Below, in pieces: positions 16,336 through 17,283 of a stretch of DNA of 64,000 nucleotides. Origin of the DNA: Chitinophagales bacterium (GTDB taxonomy: Bacteria; Bacteroidota; Bacteroidia; Chitinophagales; CAIODY01). Both the position numbers and the translations under genes were made by a program. Where the stretch lies: assembly GCA_947449695.1 (NCBI GenBank), contig CANFST010000002.1, forward strand, positions 62,001 through 126,000, given 5' to 3'. Below the pieces are notes generated by a model. The model was not told the DNA's origin. It worked only from the letters and a program-made list of their open reading frames with translations, and made no database searches. Every line of letters begins with the position of its first letter. Position 1 is the first letter of the stretch.

Positions 16336-17283
16336 TCAACCCACCATTTTATCATACAACAAAGCATTTTCGGCTTGTTGATGAATATTGATAAAACGAG
16401 TGAAATCATTTTGTAAAAATGATTGTGTTTGTAAAAACAAACCGGGCTTAAAATCTTTATCCAATTTATCATCAATGGCAACTTCTTCAACAGCAACGCT
16501 ACCTAATTTTTGTAGTTGTAATTTCTCCAAAGGTTTTAAAATGAAACGATGCTTATTAGTCATCCATTCCACACTCCATCTGCCGGGTGCATTCCAATTA
16601 GCATTGTAACTAAACAAAACATCTTTATCAGTGATGCCTGCGCCTGCAAATGCAGCACCGTTGGGATGCCACGAGATTAATCCATTTTTATAAGAGGTCA
16701 TTTCTTTGGGCATTCCGCCTAATGCAAATGCTAAATCAACCACATGAGTAGAGTTGCCAAAAAACCAATTTTCTTTTACACCTTTTGCCTTTTGCAAAGG
16801 TTCAATTACATGACTCCATTCTGTAAATTCAAAGTGCATAGATGTTGCGCCGCCATCCTCTTTTATCATTTTTTCAGCAGCTAAAGTTGATGCATAAAAT
16901 CTACGATTGTAAGCAATCAATACTTCGGCTTTTTTTTCATTTGCTAACTTTGAAACTTGCTGAATCTCACTGCTGTTCATGCCAGCAGGTTTTTCAACCA
17001 ATATTTTTTTGAAATTATTTACCAACAATTTTAAAGTTGCGTTGGCTAATTGCTCCATGCTCACGGCAACAATTGCCGCATCATATTTCGCTGAAAAAGC
17101 CTCACCCTCCGCCCTCTCCAAAGGAGAGGGAACTATGATGACTGTTTTATTCGTTTTCTCAAAAAAAGTTTTTGCAGATGCTTCACCTCTTCCAATGACA
17201 TCAAACTCAATAGCCAATGATTGTAGCACTTTTGCATATTCAACAGCCATCGGACCAGCACCAACTAAAAGTATTTTATTCAT
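16336..17283 (-). CDS. Gfo/Idh/MocA-family oxidoreductase with an in-frame palindromic insert
   Basis: A 315-residue NAD(P)-dependent oxidoreductase acting on a sugar or similar substrate. The Rossmann start KILLVGAGPMAVEYAKVL and the EKPAG motif near residue 100 mark the family; a His in NSTHVVDLAFALGG fits the substrate domain. I chose ATG 17283 over an upstream ATG at 17310 because the extra nine residues (MCLRGKKII) precede the Rossmann strand and derive from a CACGAAGACACAAAG intergenic phrase. Residues ~52-63 (PSPLERAEGEAF) are encoded by a GC-richer hairpin element at about 17101-17131 and look foreign to the fold. The gene follows another Gfo/Idh/MocA gene by 93 nt on the same strand, suggesting a joint sugar pathway. 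Confidence 0.85.
   Translation of the reverse strand: MNKILLVGAGPMAVEYAKVLQSLAIEFDVIGRGEASAKTFFEKTNKTVIIVPSPLERAEGEAFSAKYDAAIVAVSMEQLANATLKLLVNNFKKILVEKPAGMNSSEIQQVSKLANEKKAEVLIAYNRRFYASTLAAEKMIKEDGGATSMHFEFTEWSHVIEPLQKAKGVKENWFFGNSTHVVDLAFALGGMPKEMTSYKNGLISWHPNGAAFAGAGITDKDVLFSYNANWNAPGRWSVEWMTNKHRFILKPLEKLQLQKLGSVAVEEVAIDDKLDKDFKPGLFLQTQSFLQNDFTRFINIHQQAENALLYDKMVG
17101..17131. repeat. Palindromic repeat element inserted in a coding sequence
   Basis: CCCTCTCC at 17112-17119 pairs with GGAGAGGG at 17123-17130 around an AAA loop, preceded by CTCACCCTCCG. It is visibly richer in GC than its surroundings. The same kind of hairpin with a CTCACCC flank is, as far as I recall, a dispersed intergenic repeat in Bacteroidota. 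Here it lies inside an oxidoreductase gene and keeps the frame, adding about twelve codons. Confidence 0.75.

Follow-up and report, generated by a model that had tools for sequence, protein, structure and literature searches.

How did a perfect palindrome come to be translated as part of an oxidoreductase, and to what kind of element does it belong? The palindrome lies in a gene for a Gfo/Idh/MocA-type protein in the window, which is the whole stretch of 64,000 nucleotides that was analyzed. The positions of the gene and of the parts of the repeat are collected in Table 1.

Table 1. Positions of the oxidoreductase gene and of the repeat elements in the window
Feature	Position	Strand	Description
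Gfo/Idh/MocA-type oxidoreductase, 315 aa	16336..17283	-	complete ORF; PF01408 (GFO_IDH_MocA) E=4e-7; 15 orthologs aligned; AlphaFold2 model
TM/PIT-type repeat element, solo copy	17100..17130	-	in-frame PSPLERAEGEA, residues 52-62; other members in its genome, genus, order and phylum
Third-strand tag GGGTGAGG	17100..17107	-	mirror image of the purine arm, one T for A
Hairpin arm, 8 bp	17112..17119	+	CCCTCTCC; minus strand is the purine arm GGAGAGGG
Hairpin loop AAA	17120..17122	+	TTT on the minus strand
Hairpin arm, 8 bp	17123..17130	+	GGAGAGGG; minus strand is the 5' pyrimidine arm CCCTCTCC

Sequence and anatomy of the repeat

The plus strand reads CCCTCTCCAAAGGAGAGGG at positions 17112-17130, i.e. 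CCCTCTCC-AAA-GGAGAGGG, which is an exact palindrome. Ahead of it, positions 17100-17107 read CCTCACCC. The first-pass annotation had placed a palindrome with its flank in frame inside a coding sequence, and this is confirmed. The minus-strand ORF is complete, and its codons CCC TCT CCT TTG GAG AGG GCG GAG GGT GAG GCT encode PSPLERAEGEA from residue 52. With up to three mismatches allowed, the palindrome pattern has a single match in the window and none in 100 dinucleotide-preserving shuffles.

The grammar of the repeat consists of the pyrimidine arm CCCTCTCC, a loop of three nucleotides, the purine arm GGAGAGGG, a short spacer and the mirror-image third strand GGGTGAGG. The same arrangement is found in the intrastrand-triplex motif TM/TMECO (PIT), for example CCCTCTCCCTGTGGGAGAGGGCCGGGGTGAGGGC, which is present in more than 260 genomes and for which physical triplex tests (CD, NMR or footprinting) exist (PMC4666352). 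A TM/PIT motif has a pyrimidine/purine stem of 6-15 nt and a short loop. The window stem has 8 perfect base pairs and a loop of 3 nt, and its tag GGGTGAGG qualifies as the third strand by comparison with the exact mirror image of the purine arm, GGGAGAGG. The window copy carries a single tag, as do the other copies inspected. In E. coli, the TM motif is always intergenic and has no known mover (PMC4666352). The window copy departs from this intergenic habit, which is not part of the structural definition. Judged by its sequence, the feature in the window is a TM-type repeat, present as a solo copy and translated in frame. Its structural kind is known, but we have found no report of it in such a setting.

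The host protein and its loop

The palindrome and the residues it encodes are absent from all 15 aligned orthologs, which come from several phyla. These are the sister species (71% identity) and 14 others from Bacteroidota, Betaproteobacteria, a Lachnospiraceae bin and elsewhere. At the position of the repeat the orthologs mostly have a segment of the GG(L/I)xxFL type, and the GG-type loop is also present in three further orthologs of the order. Compared to the sister species, the window protein has a net gain of three residues and has lost the usual GG loop. This indicates that the repeat replaced the native loop, or that the loop was trimmed afterwards. A clean-insertion model was dropped for the same reason. 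The insertion originally proposed therefore stands as an in-frame repeat whose residues begin at 52, but not as a clean addition of 12 residues. In the DNA alignment, neither a clean insertion nor a recognizable target duplication was found at the repeat.

The structure of the oxidoreductase was predicted by AlphaFold2 with a mean pLDDT of 92.4. The only weak stretch is residues 51-60, with a pLDDT of about 59, and in the model it forms the loop between the strand at 48-50 and the helix at 61-65. This loop is on the surface and adjoins a Rossmann strand, in line with its earlier assignment to a loop of the Rossmann domain. The translated repeat probably forms an extra, disordered surface loop of the oxidoreductase.

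Distribution of the repeat family

As the first-pass annotation anticipated, the genome contains other copies of the hairpin, some of them in genes. Three exact palindromes, including the window copy, and five more within two mismatches were found in the window genome, and most share the one-sided tag GGGGTGAGG. Copies in the family are 31-36 bp long. In the sister species, 13 copies match the tagged pattern exactly. Of 299 genomes of the order, 42 contain the exact tagged pattern, as do 19 of 395 genomes across the phylum; the reversed pattern, searched as a control, is found in none of either set. The searches were run with exact patterns on a single genome per species, and the copy numbers rest on pattern searches of this kind.

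Among 105 inspected copies, 46 lie within an ORF of 120 aa or more that extends at least 20 codons beyond the repeat in both directions, and all six frames are represented. In the window genome and its relatives the repeat is translated into peptides such as PSPLERAGVRS, and other frames are translated too. Hosts identified by Pfam are the type I restriction specificity subunit HsdS, GcpE, a GH92 enzyme, PDH E2 and a ketoacyl synthase; pyruvate carboxylase, UvrA and a 2-oxoacid dehydrogenase were named from the sequence by eye. In three secreted proteins of the window genome (L003, L005 and L019) the repeat is located at the end of the signal-peptide region (SLSFGEGWGEVAFAQ, SPLYWRGVGGEVYSQ), and L003 and L005 also have a Por_Secre_tail domain.

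The family as a whole is depleted from genes. Across the order, 36 of 95 copies are located within ORFs of at least 150 aa, compared to 625 of 760 control offsets. In the window's own genus the numbers are 9 of 14 copies and 93 of 112 offsets, a difference that is not significant. A preference for genes was dismissed because the repeats avoid them overall, and the intragenic copies are best seen as survivors of selection. We also rejected the idea that the repeat, with its five open frames, is built to be translated. Shuffled sequences with the same composition have five or six open frames about two thirds of the time, so the openness is accounted for by base composition.

DUF559 cassettes in host proteins

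In the leucyl-tRNA synthetase (LeuRS) of the sister species, two copies of the repeat bracket an inserted DUF559 domain (119.5 bits; PDB 3hrl, E=2.5e-15). The inserted domain belongs to the DUF559/MTES_1575 family (PF04480), of which PDB 3hrl is described as an ‘endonuclease-like protein’. DUF559 is present in 136 of the 299 genomes of the order, with many matches within ORFs of 800-1500 aa. Inspected loci, at which hosts were assigned by sequence motifs, revealed cassettes embedded in frame in LeuRS (two sites), IleRS (two sites), MetH, UvrA, MnmE, HsdR and others. LeuRS site A is located between NWIGRSEGA and VFTTRPDT. Three alleles are seen in the alignment: an empty one with a short loop, a filled one with a cassette of about 130-165 residues, and one with a solo repeat. 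In a tree of 73 DUF559 domains, one large group holds most of the embedded ones. Embedded domains cluster by host site more than shuffled labels do, in a tree with few columns and many weak forks.

Several loci differ from this pattern. LeuRS site A contains unrelated short tandem repeats in L226, L240 and L242 (e.g. TCAATTTTCAATTTT, CCAAATTCCAAATT), and the loop, as far as its alleles can tell, is a general hot spot for tolerated indels. At the same site in L237 (genome G108), LeuRS has a different repeat-like peptide, PVILSGVEGEGESLGE, possibly from another intragenic repeat family. A second DUF559 group is found inside type I restriction HsdR genes (L199, L202, L203 and L207), where it is accompanied by other proline-rich peptides, e.g. 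PPLEGWLKAGV, with no perfect hairpin alongside. Two versions of LeuRS are present in genome G000, on contigs C20 (L249) and C62 (L248), each ending at a contig edge, with a near-identical overlap of 143 bp. This suggests a mixed bin or strain variation; the contamination of the bin is 4%.

Paired and matched ends

Perfect 8-bp hairpins flank 24 of the 59 embedded DUF559 domains on both sides and another 14 on a single side, compared to 34 of 863 control windows. They are on both sides of one of 15 standalone DUF559 genes. A scan for the triplex grammar that is independent of sequence gave similar numbers, 22 of 59 on both sides and 12 on one, and 5 of 573 in control windows. The motif is absent in the strict triplex scan at 25 of the 59 embedded domains, and at 12 of the 15 standalone genes of the order. 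In the innermost pair around DUF559 the tags point outward in 18 of 23 cases. The two ends of one cassette have identical 8-bp arms in 16 of 27 cases (5.4 expected) and identical loops in 14 of 27 (2.5 expected). This matching was reached in none of 5000 permutations, a comparison that still includes kinship among related genomes. The shared arms and loops indicate that both repeats of a cassette act as the matched termini of a single unit.

Neighboring repeats up to 700 bp apart have a similar orientation. Their tags are outward in 52 pairs, inward in 9 and in the same direction in 32. The tags-outward pairs form a short class, below 150 bp, which looks MITE-like, and a long class. The TM pairs listed for E. 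coli, by contrast, seem for the most part to have the reverse orientation (PMC4666352). Solo copies outnumber cassettes. They were considered as scars of deletion between two ends, which would keep tags on both sides; this is unsupported, as none of the 105 copies has them.

The presence of DUF559 also tracks that of the repeat. It is found in 32 of the 42 repeat-bearing genomes and 104 of the 257 others (p=2e-5), with an odds ratio of 4.5 when stratified by family from counts tallied by hand. The remaining 10 repeat-bearing genomes have no DUF559. The window genome has no DUF559 match; if DUF559 is the mover, its copies would be leftovers or would have been moved in the past. E. coli, one of a 14-genome control panel, has no match either. 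The exact motif was found in 65 stretches of viral contigs, none of which contains DUF559 within the DNA examined.

The sample from other phyla consists of 12 DUF559 loci from a plasmid collection. Three of them, two from Deinococcus and one from Pseudanabaena, have the triplex motif on both sides. Five further loci have at least one motif nearby: Synechocystis twice, Deinococcus, Azospirillum and Photobacterium. The tag is inward in Azospirillum, and the motifs in Photobacterium are an array at a distance. Two Deinococcus records have a different arm, CCTCCCCC, and the third strand varies along with the arm. DUF559 in these Deinococcus records stands alone between genes of one catabolic cluster, and its position differs by species. 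In Bacteroidota and beyond, TM-type repeats are thus present as paired ends around DUF559 genes.

A candidate mobile element

The best explanation, which we consider reasonably probable, is that a solo TM/PIT repeat landed in the stretch coding for the loop and that such repeats are the ends of a DUF559 element. In Bacteroidota, the repeats would be inverted ends, with tags outward, of an element of about 0.4-0.5 kb that encodes only the DUF559 nuclease. The nuclease may recognize the ends by their hairpin or their triplex-forming sequence, and cleave or nick both the donor and the target DNA. When the break is repaired or replicated through, full elements, short MITE-like doublets or single ends could be copied to new places. 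Insertions in genes would last only if they preserve the reading frame and the added peptide can be accommodated in a surface loop; with this requirement, survivors should be located in loops of conserved proteins. Only one end is present in the window copy, and no DUF559 gene accompanies it; inverted matched ends surround DUF559 in many cassettes of its relatives. We infer that the window repeat represents one end of a DUF559 mobile element, solo and non-autonomous, that DUF559 mobilizes the repeats, and that it does so in this manner. No case of movement was seen and no target-site duplication was recognized.

For the motif in general, we lean slightly toward the view that TM/PIT repeats represent the termini, and the solo relics, of minimal mobile elements of an undescribed family. 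These would encode only a DUF559 nuclease of about 115 aa, often in frame in essential enzymes such as LeuRS and IleRS, in at least Bacteroidota, Cyanobacteriota and Deinococcota. In the literature covered, to which most subscription journals do not belong, we found no earlier description of DUF559 as a palindrome-bounded or gene-embedded mobile element. The intrastrand-triplex literature likewise yielded no earlier account of repeats flanking DUF559, although reports in subscription journals are possible.

The origin and spread of intrastrand-triplex repeats have been a question since a 2015 survey of E. coli found no mobility gene nearby (PMC4666352). The paired repeats that bracket DUF559 elsewhere give these orphan repeats a likely mover. 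With a nuclease between matched, outward-facing motif pairs in several phyla, their spread can be tested with a protein of about 115 aa. Palindromes that code for protein are now seen not just in Rickettsia and Wolbachia but also in a large bacterial phylum whose members are mostly free-living. A nuclease domain is located inside translation and repair enzymes, and the filled, empty and solo alleles at one LeuRS site offer a natural setting in which to study the tolerance of proteins to inserted DNA.

Alternative explanations

The repeats could spread with no enzyme of their own, through recombination or through replication errors that the triplex induces, with DUF559 a passenger or bystander at hot spots of instability. 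TM loci in E. coli are rearranged between strains with no mobility genes near (PMC4666352), and LeuRS site A takes unrelated small repeats elsewhere; inserts of many kinds are thus tolerated in some loops. However, a bystander role would not predict the outward bias of the tags, the agreement in arms and loops between ends, or the repeats around DUF559 in unrelated hosts, and we regard this explanation as unlikely.

Slightly less likely still is that RAYT-type (Y1) transposases move these repeats as ordinary REPs, and that a few in-frame insertions into genes have survived. The window genome encodes one Y1_Tnp protein, as do 36 of the 42 repeat-bearing genomes at least once, and intragenic GTAG/CGTC REPs are known, including in uvrA and uvrB (PMC3733652). 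However, the association by presence is weak (p=0.09), and the motif is near none of 20 Y1_Tnp loci in repeat-bearing genomes. No copy was seen at the Y1_Tnp locus of the window genome, several Y1_Tnp loci have other palindromes of their own, and the tag GGGTGAGG is neither GTAG nor CGTC. A RAYT as the mover is thus unsupported. Y1 loci L335, L337 and L347, in relatives of the window genome, are flanked by their own palindromes (e.g. CCCCACGCTAAAGCGTGGGG, CCGCGGACTTCAGTCCGCGG) and are likely RAYT-REP pairs.

A new kind of element resembling the Rickettsia palindromic elements (RPEs) and unrelated to DUF559 is very improbable. The repeat is palindromic, repeated, in frame and in a surface loop as such an element would be, but it is from a different phylum, has the triplex grammar and measures 31-36 bp, whereas RPEs are 105-146 bp (PMC2229807). 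For these reasons of size and grammar, and since the family is depleted from genes and the native loop was replaced, the proposal of a Rickettsia-type element was abandoned. That a chance palindrome was born in a fast-evolving loop, whose length does differ among orthologs, is next to impossible given the shuffles and is ruled out by near-identical copies elsewhere that bear the same tag.

Comparison with known systems

The DUF559 element proposed here shares features with several known systems. Homing endonucleases and inteins also place a small nuclease in frame in essential genes, at the same site in many species. The DUF559 cassette differs in having no visible splicing domain, and appears to be retained in the protein. 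GTAG/CGTC REPs with their RAYTs are likewise short tagged hairpins, frequently in inverted pairs and in some cases intragenic (uvrA, uvrB) (PMC3733652). Unlike them, the repeat here has no GTAG/CGTC tag, and the Y1 genes are not flanked by it.

RPEs are also palindromic repeats that reside in frame in conserved genes, where the extra peptide is tolerated. They are longer and Rickettsia-specific (Ogata et al., 2000, via PMC2229807), and the portion of PMC2229807 that concerns them mentions no associated nuclease. The repeat family resembles them in its in-frame residence in conserved genes, but not in size or in specificity to Rickettsia. By analogy, the window repeat seems to work like an RPE but is not one.

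The closest relative is TM/PIT (Holder et al., 2015; PMC4666352). Both have the same order of arm, loop, arm, spacer and mirror-image third strand, a near-identical sequence and a presence in many genomes. In E. coli, TM/PIT is intergenic with no mobility genes near, whereas the family here is often translated in frame and paired around DUF559.
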